Origin: a virus
Virus record (IMG/VR): IMGVR_UViG_3300009157_000026
Location: 1-44,835 of that record
Length of the DNA: 44,835 nucleotides
Reading direction: 5' to 3' (one strand)
Part shown: positions 4,388 to 10,473 of the stretch, in pieces
How positions within the stretch are numbered: the stretch's first letter is position 1
Layout: each line of letters opens with the position of its first letter
The notes under the pieces: generated by a model
Databases searched by the model: none
Told to the model about the DNA's origin: nothing
Seen by the model: only the letters and a program-made list of their open reading frames with translations
Program-made: the position numbers and the translations under genes

Positions 4388-4426
4388 CCCCACCTTCCCC
4401 TGAGCCGGAAGGTGGGGTAGTTTTTT
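4388..4426 (+). terminator. intrinsic terminator
   Basis: CCCCACCTTCC (4388-4398) pairs perfectly with GGAAGGTGGGG (4407-4417), an 11-bp GC-rich stem with an 8-nt loop. It is followed by TAGTTTTTT (4418-4426). This is a classical Rho-independent terminator for plus-strand transcripts. It separates the early block from the late genes that start at 4452. Confidence 0.9.
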
Positions 4427-5418: not shown

Positions 5419-5648
5419 TGCGCATTTGGCCGGTCACCAACAAGATGATCGAGGAGGAAGAGCGCGGTCCTCACATCGTCATGTTCGGTGACCCTTGGCA
5501 CGGTTTTCACTTCTATGGTCCATTCGCCAATCGCCGCGATGCGCTCAGGTGGTCCGAGCGCGTCTTCGATGGCGCGCCTGATCACTGGCACCTGATCCCA
5601 CTGGAGCCGCCAAATGTCGAGCGACCCGACAGGGCGGCTGCCGAATAA
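5418..5648 (+). CDS. 76-residue protein between the terminase genes
   Basis: The ATG at 5418 overlaps the previous stop (TGATG). An in-frame TTG lies one codon earlier. The product has many aromatic residues (HIVMFGDPWHGFHFYGPF, DALRWSERVF, DHWHLIPLEPP) and looks like a compact alpha/beta fold. Its end overlaps the terminase start by 35 bp. No family function is known to me. Confidence 0.7.
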   Translation: MRIWPVTNKMIEEEERGPHIVMFGDPWHGFHFYGPFANRRDALRWSERVFDGAPDHWHLIPLEPPNVERPDRAAAE

Positions 5649-6993
5649 CTGGCGCCCGCGCTCGTATCAGGAGCCGCTGTTCTATCATCTCATCGATGGC
5701 GGCAAGCGCGCGATGGCGATCTGGCATCGTCGCGCAGGCAAGGACGATGTTGCGCTCCACTTCGCCGCGTGCGCGGCGCATGAGCGCATCGGAAATTATT
5801 GGCACTGCCTTCCGGAATACGAGCAAGGTCGCAAGGCGATCTGGACCGCAGTCAACGCGCACACTGGCGTGCGCCGCATCGACGAGGCGTTCCCGAAGTA
5901 TCTGCGCGCCAACACCAACGACAATGAGATGTTCATTCGCTTCCACAATGGCTCGACGTGGCAGGTCGTTGGCAGCGATCGATATGACAGCACTGTCGGC
6001 TCGGCTGTCGCCGGCATCACGTACAGTGAGTGGGCGCTCTCGCATCCCGGTGCATGGGGCTATCACCGCCCGATCCTCGAAGAGAACAACGGCTACGCGC
6101 TCTTCATCACGACGCCACGCGGACGTAACCATGCGAAGACGATGTACGACATGGCGATCCAGAACCCGCGCTGGTTCGTCTCGCTGCTCACCGCGCACGA
6201 CACTGGTGCGCTCTCGCAGGAGCAGCTTGACGAGACGCTCACGGAGTACACATCGCTGTTCGGACGCGACGTCGGCAAGGCGCAGTTCGAGCAGGAATAC
6301 GAATGCAACTTCAACGCCGCGATCCTTGGCGCCTACTTCGCGCTTGAGATGATGGACGTGCGCCGCCAGCGCCGCATCATCGATGAGGAGGCCGATCCCG
6401 ATCTCCCGGTGCATCGTGCGTGGGACATCGGCGTGCGTGACGACACCGCGATCTGGTTCTTCCAGATGCGCGGTGCGCAGATCCTCTACCTCGATGTCTA
6501 CGGTGCGAGCACGGTTGGCGTCGAGCACTATGCCGGCGTGATCGAGCAGAAGCGCGCACTGCATGGCTGGCAGGACGGCAACGACTACGTGCCGCACGAC
6601 GCCAAGGTGAAGGAGTGGGGCTCGGGCCGGACGCGCGTCGAGAGCATGAAAGACAACGGGCTCAACCCGATCCTCGTGCCCAACCTGAGCAAGCTCGACG
6701 GCATCGAGGCGGCGCGGCGCACACTGCCGCTCGCCATCTTCCACCCGCGCTGCGAGGAGATCGGCGTCGCCGCGCTCGAACAGTATTGCCGCGAGTGGGA
6801 CGCCGAGCTGAAGGCCTTCAAGCAGGAGGAAAAGCGTGACTGGACGACGCACTATGCCGATGCCTTCCGCTACAGTGCTCTGGCGTGGAAGATGCTCCCG
6901 GTGATAAAGGTGCAGCAGCGACTGCCATCCGGCTGGATCATCCCGCCGCCCGACGAGGCGCTGGTCCGCAGGCCGGGGAGGATACAGCTATGA
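5614..6993 (+). CDS. terL: terminase large subunit
   Basis: A 459-residue DNA-packaging motor. The N-terminal ATPase shows Walker A HRRAGKDD (38-45, Lys43), Walker B GITYSEW (134-140, with Ser-Glu in place of Asp-Glu) and coupling motif ALFITTPRG (about 162-170). The C-terminal RNase H-like nuclease shows AWDIGVRDDTA (first Asp about 271), VPHDAK (about 326) and HYADAFRY (Asp about 416). TerL translocates DNA into the procapsid through the portal and cuts the concatemer. Length and motif order are normal. The start overlaps the preceding gene by 35 bp, and the stop overlaps the next ATG (ATGA). Confidence 0.96.
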   Translation: MSSDPTGRLPNNWRPRSYQEPLFYHLIDGGKRAMAIWHRRAGKDDVALHFAACAAHERIGNYWHCLPEYEQGRKAIWTAVNAHTGVRRIDEAFPKYLRANTNDNEMFIRFHNGSTWQVVGSDRYDSTVGSAVAGITYSEWALSHPGAWGYHRPILEENNGYALFITTPRGRNHAKTMYDMAIQNPRWFVSLLTAHDTGALSQEQLDETLTEYTSLFGRDVGKAQFEQEYECNFNAAILGAYFALEMMDVRRQRRIIDEEADPDLPVHRAWDIGVRDDTAIWFFQMRGAQILYLDVYGASTVGVEHYAGVIEQKRALHGWQDGNDYVPHDAKVKEWGSGRTRVESMKDNGLNPILVPNLSKLDGIEAARRTLPLAIFHPRCEEIGVAALEQYCREWDAELKAFKQEEKRDWTTHYADAFRYSALAWKMLPVIKVQQRLPSGWIIPPPDEALVRRPGRIQL

Positions 6994-7244
6994 GCGACAG
7001 CAATCCTTCCTTTGCGTTCGTGGCCAACGGCATCCACCATATGCTGCACGGCATGTTCAAGGATGCGCCGTTCGAATTCCTGCTCGTGATCGCGCAGCCG
7101 GGCGACGACGACACTGTCCAGCTCAACACCATCACCGGCATCAAGAGCGCGGACAACCTGCGCACGATCGCGATGCATCTGATCGCGATGGCGGAGGGCA
7201 TGAAGACTCCGCTCGACGACGACAACATAGAGGGGCACGCATGA
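6990..7244 (+). CDS. 84-residue protein, unknown
   Basis: The ATG overlaps the terminase stop (ATGA). The product begins MSDSNPSFAFVANGIHHML and continues with LLVIAQPGDDDTVQLNTITGI and a helix NLRTIAMHLIAMAEGM. It reads as a small alpha/beta protein and is acidic at the C-terminus. Its end overlaps the next gene by ATGA. It is the first gene of a cassette of five small genes between terminase and portal that includes an anti-defence candidate. Confidence 0.75.
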   Translation: MSDSNPSFAFVANGIHHMLHGMFKDAPFEFLLVIAQPGDDDTVQLNTITGIKSADNLRTIAMHLIAMAEGMKTPLDDDNIEGHA

Positions 7245-7489
7245 CGCAGTTGCATGAGAGCACGTTCGAGTATCTCAAGCCGAACGACGACCAGACCACC
7301 AACATGCAGATCTGCCGCGAGTCTGCCGCCGAGTATGCGCGCGTTCTGTCCGAGATCGTGCCGGATGGCGCCGACAAGACCTATGCGTTGCGCAAGCTGC
7401 GCGAGCTTGCGATGTGGGTGAACGTTGCGATCACGCGCAATGCGGATGGGAGCCCGCGCAATGGCGAAGGAGAAGACGAGCCCTCATAG
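7241..7489 (+). CDS. Acb2/Tad1-type hook protein, candidate anti-CBASS/anti-Thoeris sponge
   Basis: An 82-residue protein matching the pattern I know for the Acb2/Tad1 hook family: an N-terminal F-x-Y-x-x-P segment (FEYLKPNDDQ, 9-18), a helix with R and E, a PDGADKTYAL turn (41-50) and the closing helix RKLRELAMWVNVAITRN (51-67), comparable to the family's L-E-E-A-x-M-W-A-N-A-x-I-A-R. Characterised members bind and sequester cyclic nucleotide signals of host CBASS or Thoeris immunity. The call rests on motif memory only, and ligand specificity cannot be predicted. The gene is ATGA-coupled to its upstream neighbour and lies in the terminase-portal cassette. Confidence 0.7.
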   Translation: MTQLHESTFEYLKPNDDQTTNMQICRESAAEYARVLSEIVPDGADKTYALRKLRELAMWVNVAITRNADGSPRNGEGEDEPS

Positions 7490-7619
7490 GCCCGATCGAT
7501 CGACCGACAAGACGATCGTCATCACCATCACGGTGCCGTCGAACGCCGTGATCGCGATCAGCACTGACAAGGTATCAGCCGAGTGCGCCGCCAACATCAA
7601 GCTCGGGGAGGAGTTTTGA
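7461..7619 (+). CDS. 52-residue protein, unknown
   Basis: It starts at ATG 7461 inside the end of the preceding gene and ends at TGA overlapping the next ATG. The core KTIVITITVPSNAVIAIST is a beta-strand pair, with a short helical end (SAECAANIKLG). A longer in-frame start at 7425 would overlap the upstream gene more and has no better ribosome site. Translational overlap on both sides supports it. Function is unknown. Confidence 0.6.
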   Translation: MAKEKTSPHRPDRSTDKTIVITITVPSNAVIAISTDKVSAECAANIKLGEEF

Positions 7620-7918
7620 TGGTGCTCACCCCGCAGCTGATGCGCGCACGCGACAGGCTTGCATCATCGCGCTCGCAGCGGCGCAACATCGGCTGGAGCG
7701 AGGCGCTCGGCGAGCACAGCCAAGCGGTCAATTCGAGCGCGATCAGCCGCGTCGGCTACAACGAGCAGGACCAGACGCTGATGGTCACGTTCCTGCAAAG
7801 CGGGCGCACCTACACCTACTACGATGTGCCGATCTCGATCTACCATGCGCTCGCGCGCGCGGGCTCGCCCGGGCGCTACTTCAATTACAACGTCAAGGGT
7901 CGCTACAGCTACAGCTGA
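7619..7918 (+). CDS. KTSC-domain protein
   Basis: A 99-residue protein. Residues 37-98 match the KTSC domain: VNSSAISRVGYNEQDQTLMV, then FLQSGRTYTYYDVP, IYHALARAGSPGRYFN and VKGRYSY. This small domain is common in phage and bacterial genomes, sometimes fused to lysyl-tRNA synthetase. Its role in phages is not established. The start overlaps the preceding stop (TGATG). It belongs to the small-gene cassette between terminase and portal. Confidence 0.88.
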   Translation: MVLTPQLMRARDRLASSRSQRRNIGWSEALGEHSQAVNSSAISRVGYNEQDQTLMVTFLQSGRTYTYYDVPISIYHALARAGSPGRYFNYNVKGRYSYS

Positions 7919-7928
7919 GGAGGATGCC

Positions 7929-8105
7929 ATGTCGATCGGCTTGATCTTCTGGATCTTGATGCTGTTCTGGCTTGTCTTCGGGATGTGGACCAACTGGGCC
8001 AGCATCCACAGTGGCGACTATCGTCCGTTCGGCAACAACTTGCTGCTGTTCATCCTGTTGTTACTGCTCGGGTGGGCCGCGTTTGGAGCGCCGGTAAGAG
8101 GGTGA
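7929..8105 (+). CDS. 58-residue two-helix membrane protein
   Basis: The start has a good Shine-Dalgarno (GAGGAGG, 7918-7924). Two hydrophobic helices (LIFWILMLFWLVFGMW and LLLFILLLLLGWAAFG) flank a short polar hairpin with HSGDYRPFGN. Proteins of this exact layout are frequent next to phage portal genes. Two-helix proteins include some holins, but this one is far from the endolysin, so a holin role is not assumed. Confidence 0.8.
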   Translation: MSIGLIFWILMLFWLVFGMWTNWASIHSGDYRPFGNNLLLFILLLLLGWAAFGAPVRG

Positions 8106-8106
8106 C

Positions 8107-10473
8107 ATGAAAGTTTCCGATCCGCGCAGCAAGACCAGCGACGAGGTCAACGTCTTCACCGAGCCGAAGAACGCCGAGACGTGGCTGGAGCTGCTGCGCG
8201 AGAGCGAGAAGGCGTTCGAGGCGTGGAACGAGGCGTGCGACAACATCGACAAGCAGTATGCCAACCTCGATCGGTTGCGCACCGAGACGCGCGATAGCCA
8301 GTTTCAGATGTTCTGGTCGAACATTCAGGTGCTCGGCCCGGTGATCTACGCGCGACCGCCGATCCCGGTGGTGGTGCCGAAGTTCAAGGATCGCCGGCCG
8401 GTCCCGCAGGCCGCAAGCGAGATGGCGGAGCGCTGCGCCAACGTGGCGTTCGATCTTTCCTACATCCATCCTGCGCTCAAGCTGGTGCGCGATGGCGTCT
8501 CGCTGCACGGTCGCGGCGTGCTCTGGTGCCGTCACGAGCGCGCCAAGAACAATCGCCCCGAGAAGGTCTGCATCGAGCACAAGGACCGGCGCGACTTCCT
8601 GCATTCGATCTGCCGCAACTGGAGCGAGGTCGAGTGGGTGGCAGCTGCGAGCTATCTGACGCGGCGCGAGGCGAAGAAGCGCTTCAAGAAGTATTCCAAG
8701 GACGCTTACGACCGGCTCGAATACAAGGTGCAGCGTGACGAGCGCGACGTCGGCGGCATGGACGATCGCGAGCGCGCCAAAATCTGGGAGATGTGGCACC
8801 GCACGCTCGGACTCGTGGTCTGGGTGAGCGAGGGATCGGAGGTGCTGCTCGACTACGCCGAGCCGCATCTCGATCTGCAAGGCTACTTTCCCTGCCCGCA
8901 GCCCGCCTACTCGACGGTGCAGCCGGGCTCGCTCATCCCGGTACCCGACGTCGAGTATTACCGCGATCAGCTGGAGGAGCTGAACTCGCTCACCGGGCGC
9001 ATTCATGCGCTTGCCGAGGCGATCGAGGTGAAAGGCTTCTATCCTTCCGGTGGCCATGAGATCGCGGATGCGATCGAGAAGGCCATCAAGATGAAATCGT
9101 CGAGCCGCATCCTTGTGCCGGTCAACAATTGGGCGGCATTCGGCGGCAGCAAGGAGGTGATCATCTGGCTGCCGATCGAGGAAATCGCCAACACCGTGCT
9201 CTCGCTCGTCACGATCCGCAAGCAGGTGATCGACGACATCTATCAGATCGTCGGCCTCTCCGACATCATGCGCGGCTCGACCGATCCGGACGAGACGCTC
9301 GGCGCGCAGAAGATGAAGATGCAGTCCGGCGCCGTACGCATTCGCGACAAGCAAGGCGAGATGGCGCGCATCGCCAAGGACTGCGTGCAGATCGCGATCG
9401 AGATCATCACCGAGAAGTTCGAGGACGAGACGATCCTCGCGATGTCGCAGATGCAGCTGCCGCGCAAGTTCGAGATCCAGCAGCAGATCCAGATCATCAC
9501 GCAGAACGCGCAGCGCCAGTTGATGCAGCTGCAGTCCAATCCGCAGATGATGCAGCAGGTGCAGCAGAACCCGCAGGCGCAGCAACAGGCGCAGCAGATG
9601 GTTCAGCAGGTGCAGGGCGAGATCAAGAAGCTCACCGAGAAGGCGACGGTCGAGGACGTGCTGGCGTTCCTGCGCGACAACCGCGCACGCTCGTTCACGC
9701 TCGACATTGAGACTGACAGCACGATCATGATCGATGAGCAGCAGGAGAAGGAGCAGCGCGGCGAGTTCGTTGCCGTGCTGTCCGGCCTGATCCAGCAGAT
9801 CGGCGTGATGGTCACCACCATGCCGCCGACCGCGAAGTTCGGTGGCGATGTGCTCAAGTTCGCGATCGCGCCTTATCGCGCGGGCCGCGCGCTCGACAGC
9901 TCGATCGACGAGATGGTTGACCAGCTCAACCAGCTCGCCGCGTCCGGCCAGCTGCCGCAGGGTGGACAGCAGCAGACCGGCGAAGACCCGCAGGTGAAGC
10001 TGCAAGTCGAGCAGATGAAGTTGCAGCACGCCTCGCAGGAGAACGACAAGGACCGTCAGCTGCAAATGGCCGAGCTGATGGCGAAGGCGCGCAGCGAGCA
10101 GGAGAAGATCCGCAACGAGCGCGAGGTCGCAATGCTCGAATTCCAAGGCGCCGAGCGCGAGCGCGAGGCCAAGATCATCCAGATCCGCGCGCAGATGCAG
10201 CGCGACCGCGAGAAGGCCGCGCAGGACGCGCAGAAGAGCCAGCAGGATCTCGTGCTCAACACGCAGAAGGCGCAGATCCAGCAGCGCGGACAGATGGAGA
10301 AGAACGCCGCCGTGCGTCAGGGCATGAACATGAAGGCGCAGGACAGCGCGCTCAATCGCCAGCAGAAGCAGGCGCAGTTCAACCAGTCATCGCGCCAGAA
10401 GGACCAGCAGTTCGCGCAGTCCACGCAGCTGAAGGAAAAGCAGATGACGATGCCGCGACCGGGTGCGAGGTGA
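8107..10473 (+). CDS. portal protein
   Basis: A 788-residue protein. The N-terminal 450 residues have the features of podovirus portals: ETRDSQFQMFWSNIQVLGP and VIYARPPIPVVVPKF near the start, a long wing and stem region, and DEVNVF at the beginning. The last 330 residues are a Gln-rich coiled coil (QQQIQIITQNAQRQLMQLQ onward) that would form the barrel projecting into the capsid. Twelve copies form the vertex through which DNA is packaged and ejected. The gene directly follows the small membrane protein and is 3 bp before the tail lysozyme gene. Size agrees with P22-like and rhizobial podophage portals. Confidence 0.9.
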   Translation: MKVSDPRSKTSDEVNVFTEPKNAETWLELLRESEKAFEAWNEACDNIDKQYANLDRLRTETRDSQFQMFWSNIQVLGPVIYARPPIPVVVPKFKDRRPVPQAASEMAERCANVAFDLSYIHPALKLVRDGVSLHGRGVLWCRHERAKNNRPEKVCIEHKDRRDFLHSICRNWSEVEWVAAASYLTRREAKKRFKKYSKDAYDRLEYKVQRDERDVGGMDDRERAKIWEMWHRTLGLVVWVSEGSEVLLDYAEPHLDLQGYFPCPQPAYSTVQPGSLIPVPDVEYYRDQLEELNSLTGRIHALAEAIEVKGFYPSGGHEIADAIEKAIKMKSSSRILVPVNNWAAFGGSKEVIIWLPIEEIANTVLSLVTIRKQVIDDIYQIVGLSDIMRGSTDPDETLGAQKMKMQSGAVRIRDKQGEMARIAKDCVQIAIEIITEKFEDETILAMSQMQLPRKFEIQQQIQIITQNAQRQLMQLQSNPQMMQQVQQNPQAQQQAQQMVQQVQGEIKKLTEKATVEDVLAFLRDNRARSFTLDIETDSTIMIDEQQEKEQRGEFVAVLSGLIQQIGVMVTTMPPTAKFGGDVLKFAIAPYRAGRALDSSIDEMVDQLNQLAASGQLPQGGQQQTGEDPQVKLQVEQMKLQHASQENDKDRQLQMAELMAKARSEQEKIRNEREVAMLEFQGAEREREAKIIQIRAQMQRDREKAAQDAQKSQQDLVLNTQKAQIQQRGQMEKNAAVRQGMNMKAQDSALNRQQKQAQFNQSSRQKDQQFAQSTQLKEKQMTMPRPGAR

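Follow-up and report, generated by a model that had tools for sequence, protein, structure and literature searches.

The window, that is, the whole stretch of viral DNA analysed here (44,835 nucleotides), carries on its + strand a packaging region in which the genes of the terminase large subunit (5614-6993; phrog_2, 5.5e-23) and of the portal protein (8107-10473; phrog_12082, 1.2e-172) form the upstream and downstream borders of a cassette site. Between them lies, at 7241-7489 of the same strand, the gene of a candidate immune-signal sponge (hereafter the sponge), an Acb2-type hairpin protein recognised by its match to the Pfam family PF24729, by the hairpin predicted with AlphaFold2, and by 7uq2 as top PDB match. 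The product has exactly 82 residues, starts with MTQLHESTFEYLKP and contains MWVNVAITRN; the reading frame, this motif, and the placement given in the preliminary description were all seen in the sequence. The gene is under purifying selection, with dN/dS of about 0.22 and about 0.39 against two of its nearest distinct relatives. Taken together with the PF24729 match and the relatives present in IMG/VR, this indicates that the reading frame did not arise by chance.

The ATG of the sponge gene lies within an ATGA overlap with the preceding gene (6990-7244, + strand, 84 aa), whose own start lies likewise within an ATGA overlap with the terminase gene. This 84-residue gene is conserved in the nearest relatives, two of which lack the sponge. 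It gave no match in Pfam or PHROG, and its model (alpha-beta-beta-alpha) was of low confidence (pLDDT 69) and found no convincing fold match. At the other end, an ORF of 52 aa (7461-7619, + strand) overlaps the 3′ end of the sponge gene by 29 bases; it has clear relatives only in L001 and L006 and no Pfam or PHROG family match. The preliminary description had taken both neighbours for overlapping genes of no assigned family, as indeed they are, and for possible further anti-defence factors, a role that is unproven and to which the persistence of the 6990 gene in relatives without the sponge lends no support.

The site is completed on the + strand by the genes of a KTSC-domain protein of 99 aa (7619-7918; PF13619, 74 bits) and of a hydrophobic protein of 58 aa (7929-8105), probably a membrane protein as judged from its sequence. 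KTSC genes recur, in varied order, beside sponges of the type found in the window (window-type) in several lineages (L072-L074, L092, L093, and L098). The 58-aa hydrophobic protein, seen also in L166-L200, adjoins window-type sponges in unrelated phages (L056/L057 and L071) and is mostly found where there is no sponge, as a small membrane gene that is separately mobile. A fixed module of sponge, KTSC protein, and membrane protein was considered and rejected, since the membrane gene mostly occurs without the sponge and the order of the KTSC gene is shuffled. A first clustering of the neighbouring ORFs was not used, since most of what it grouped were shadow frames.

The packaging operon is preceded by a strong terminator-like hairpin (4388-4417, + strand; an 11-pair stem followed by TAGTTTTTTC), assigned by consensus match only. 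From the end of this hairpin to position 8428, scans of the + strand for promoters and terminators, which are weak scans, gave no match; this points to co-transcription, and the sponge and terminase genes are probably in one transcription unit.

Family membership, predicted fold, and putative pocket

In the preliminary description the protein was assigned to the Acb2/Tad1 hook family from its sequence pattern. The profile search bears this out: PF24729 (Acb2/Tad1 hairpin) matched with 33.5 bits and E = 5e-8, over residues 11-66 and profile positions 2-58, the curated Pfam cut-off being 27 bits. Vs.4 of phage T4, which is the T4 Acb2, was used as control and scored 71.4 bits, and 0 of 14 control genomes were positive in the search for the sponge family. 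All 56 distinct rows of the subfamily alignment match PF24729 with E of 0.001 or better. The closest PHROG by score is phrog_1454 (function unknown; 6.3e-13), to which T4 Vs.4 also has a weak match. In sequence, the similarity to the Acb2 proteins of T4 and PaMx33 is very low. Neither phmmer with the single protein nor a search with a 14-member profile found an Acb2 among the PDB chains, so that the link to Acb2 rests on the Pfam family, the fold, and the positions of individual residues.

The single-chain AlphaFold2 model, built on the 56-row alignment, predicts two helices (residues 16-39 and 44-65) with pLDDT 91 and no strand of three residues or more; the two antiparallel helices come after an N-terminal segment, which is the layout of Acb2. 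The short N-terminal helix described for Acb2 is absent from the model. An N-terminal antiparallel β-sheet of the Tad1 type is absent too, with just about 15 residues before helix 1, and for this reason Acb2 appears, on the model, to be a better label than Tad1. By comparison with solved structures in Foldseek, the top PDB match was 7uq2, T4 Vs.4 with cGAMP (probability 0.75, E 1.1), and the PaMx33 Acb2 (8h2x) was also among the matches, further down; these E-values are weak, as expected for a hairpin of 60 residues. Among the BFVD predictions every one of the top 13 matches bears the name Acb2/Tad1 hairpin protein (best E 1e-3, probability 1.0), the nearest being those of Lactococcus phage 1706 and Mycobacterium phage Phabba. 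The two-helix hook that had been anticipated is thus what is predicted, with T4 Acb2 as the best solved match. With a hit to the hook family and a fold that contains the hook both in hand, the proposed Acb2/Tad1-like identity is supported.

Residues were matched through Pfam profile coordinates; a MAFFT alignment of the subfamily with PaMx33 and T4 was set aside, the second helix of PaMx33 being misplaced in it. The tyrosine with which Acb2 binds its ligand is Y8 in T4 and Y11 in PaMx33. Y11 of the window protein and Y8 of T4 Acb2 share profile position 2, and this Y11 is conserved in 53 of the 56 rows. Fifteen residues after this aromatic stands R26 (R in 54/56 rows), and the same spacing leads to K23 in T4 and to K26 in PaMx33, basic residues in all three; K26 of PaMx33 we take to have a role in the ligand pocket. 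The T4 Acb2 mutant Y8A lost its function and is described as binding-deficient, and T68 and F82 are also reported to affect binding (PMC12657218, PMC12657230). The last two have no like counterparts in the 82-aa protein, where T68 aligns with R51 and F82 with T65. Considering that PaMx33 Acb2 has A88 at the position of F82, this residue is not conserved even within Acb2. From the differences at F82 and T68 it follows that the putative pocket is not the same throughout as that of T4. Residues invariant in 56 of 56 rows are G43, D45, K46, R51, R54, A57, M58, W59, and G70, and strong conservation across these diverse rows extends, among polar and basic residues, over R51, R54, R66, D69, G70, P72, and R73. 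The helices are shorter than those of T4, so the protein may not share its ligand or its oligomer. In the sponge ORFs of L029, L032, L056, L062, and L072 the hairpin is followed by a conserved C-terminal extension of the YPxDHPxxGDLGSVPL type.

These residues bear on two alternatives to an Acb2-type sponge. The better of them, which we regard as unlikely though worth keeping in mind, is a sponge of the same fold for another signal (the ADP-ribose signal of Thoeris, an oligoadenylate of type III CRISPR, or some other nucleotide), so that "anti-CBASS" would be a misnomer; it overlaps with our preferred explanation, and the ligand is the only difference. The pocket may indeed differ, as the aromatic and the basic residue are all in which the invariant core resembles T4 and PaMx33, and PF24729 also covers Tad1, with members that bind gcADPR as well as cyclic nucleotides (PMC12043709). 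Against it, the extra N-terminal β-sheet of Tad1 is missing from the 82-aa protein, and the occupant of the cassette site in L096/L097 is close to PaMx33 Acb2. We give distinctly less credit to the second alternative, a family member by descent that has lost the binding of immune signals or that acts, for another purpose, on a nucleotide messenger of the host, c-di-GMP or c-di-AMP for example. It would account for the fact that only the aromatic and the basic residue of the pocket are matched, T4 F82 and T68 being without like counterparts, but the conserved polar and basic residues of the 56 rows and the purifying selection suggest that a function has been kept.

Relatives and the terminase-portal slot

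In IMG/VR, 17 relatives of the sponge were found by single-sequence search and at least 86 by the alignment-based search; one of them, L001/L087, is an almost identical contig from the same virus and does not count as independent evidence. Short exact patterns, applied to 84,980 genomes of bacteria and archaea, gave no relatives of the sponge and none of the terminase, an absence that does no more than hint at a non-temperate life style. Among isolate phages the relatives were only distant (<60% identity), and the best well-covered match had at most about 44% identity. The isolates closest in the packaging region infect Rhizobium and Bradyrhizobium, which suggests an alphaproteobacterial host.

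The terminase-portal position is also taken by window-type sponges outside this group, in an unrelated phage lineage (L010, L012, L013, L015, and L017) in which the two flanking genes are assigned to different PHROG families (phrog_38 and phrog_156). At about 28 of 80 sponge loci a terminase or portal/head-tail adaptor gene is located on the same strand at a distance of 1.8 kb or less; DNA-replication genes on the same strand are found within 1.8 kb at about 12 of the 80, and some relatives of the protein adjoin the genes of a Sak4 annealing protein or a DNA polymerase. Window-type sponges are thus repeatedly, though not universally, at home in a late location, and homes in early regions occur too. 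The late location had been singled out beforehand as notable, which is right with regard to the Acb2 genes of T4 and PaMx33, yet within the subfamily such a home is common.

We measured 74 junctions in which both genes were present, one of them the near-duplicate of the window itself. The gap between terminase and portal varies between zero and about 1.6 kb, and a sponge is missing from 62 of the 74. In Rhizobium phage RHph_I3_18 the next large gene begins ten bases after the terminase, and its size and alignment suggest that it is the portal. The small ORFs in the gaps (6993-8107 in the window; L087-L165) fall into more than 50 clusters, the majority without a Pfam match, and are candidates for counter-defence or accessory genes. 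The Pfam names that did appear in the slot (sigma-70 region 4, HNH endonuclease, and Arc-like) were discarded as leads, not being known anti-defence families.

When PF24729 was run against the 78 records from which the other relatives come, 15 matches exceeded the cut-off, 11 of which are in the terminase-portal junction and fall into three kinds: window-type (L089-L093 and L098), PaMx33-like (L096/L097, 49.7 bits), and a third kind (L136-L138, 51.2 bits). A further window-type copy, in L088, where the contig end cuts it, was found with the subfamily profile. Between the three kinds blastp detects little or nothing. The PaMx33-like Acb2 at L096:6885-7196 has 103 aa and occupies the slot in a sister lineage. 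That sister lineages place other PF24729 proteins in this slot supports the reading of the window protein as a sponge. In the terminase tree the window-type clade is close to L096/L097, from which it is separated by the sponge-less L094/L095, and the third kind is far from it. Of all bases in the surveyed records, 2.3% belong to the junction; counting about three of six or seven independent gains as having fallen there, the chance is of the order of 3e-4, a figure that is only indicative, calculated after the fact and on contigs chosen by their terminase.

The swapping of sponge cassettes at this site is directly evident from two contigs with closely similar flanks and unrelated inserts. L127 and L136 share 98.7% identity over 1302 bases, ending at the stop codon of the terminase; there follow 362 bases in L127 against 524 unrelated bases in L136, the latter with the third-kind sponge, and downstream of the differing cassettes the identity is again 88.9% over 2.2 kb. 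The switch of cassette at the stop codon of nearly identical terminases can be followed in L127:6335-6914 and L136:5738-6475. In the literature searched we found no published description of a swap site between terminase and portal.

A small accessory protein of packaging or assembly with a merely similar helical hairpin, which the position between terminase and portal, the translational coupling, and the simplicity of such a fold might recommend, is very improbable, given that related phages package without the sponge (62 of 74 junctions, and RHph_I3_18, whose terminase adjoins the next large gene), that other relatives of the protein adjoin Sak4 annealing protein or DNA polymerase genes, and that the match exceeds the cut-off of one specific family and is more than a likeness to hairpins in general.

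Proposed mechanism and comparison with known systems

Taking these results together, we consider it likely that the gene at 7241-7489, carried in an exchangeable cassette of the packaging operon, codes for a sponge of the Acb2 type that takes up nucleotide immune signals. Each protomer, an N-terminal strap followed by the two-helix hairpin, would assemble into an oligomer and, by analogy with Acb2, whose oligomers hold cyclic nucleotides without degradation (PMC12043709), this oligomer would retain the immune signals without cutting them. Cyclic di- or trinucleotides from CBASS-like systems would be the most likely ligands, and the host effector would stay off until the phage cycle is complete. 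The coupled starts would allow the sponge to be translated with the packaging operon, and exchange of the accessory cassette among related phages may fit the sponge to the hosts of each lineage, to the benefit of the phage.

With this analysis the Acb2-type sponges come to include a large and conserved subfamily from soil phages that are uncultured and probably alphaproteobacterial. The location is the new part, and the swap site is more interesting than the addition of one more family member. The stretch between terminase and portal is marked as a precise place of swapping, so that reading the other occupants of the slot offers a practical way to search for new counter-defence genes; it also raises the question of what a phage gains by producing a signal sponge along with its packaging proteins. 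We suggest, tentatively and at somewhat less than even odds, that the terminase-portal junction of this soil phage group is an exchange site for counter-defence genes and that the roughly 50 other small and mostly unnamed gene families in the slot include undiscovered counter-defence proteins. If so, unrelated hairpin sponges would replace one another at the junction, and phages would regularly express their sponges late, in step with packaging.

Acb2 (anti-CBASS 2) is a hexamer with separate pockets for dinucleotides and trinucleotides, and by binding cyclic nucleotides it shields phages from CBASS. The T4 protein (Vs.4, 7uq2) resembles the 82-aa protein in belonging to PF24729, in its all-helical hairpin, in the correspondence of Y8 with Y11, and in an MW motif in helix 2; it differs in being longer, by about 20 residues, between the matched ends, and its gene is in the vs/regB cluster, whereas that of the window is between terminase and portal. 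The Acb2 of Pseudomonas phage PaMx33 (ORF24, 8h2x) has the spacing Y11/K26, the same as Y11/R26 here, and the same fold class in Foldseek, but its sequence identity is very low, and its gene and the structural genes are on opposite strands. Tad1 (Thoeris anti-defence 1) has in common with the window protein the C-terminal helical hairpin domain named in PF24729; it also carries an N-terminal antiparallel β-sheet (PMC12043709), unlike the window protein, in which none is predicted. The proteins of phrog_1454, Lactococcus phage 1706, and Mycobacterium phage Phabba are similar but occur in a different genomic setting.
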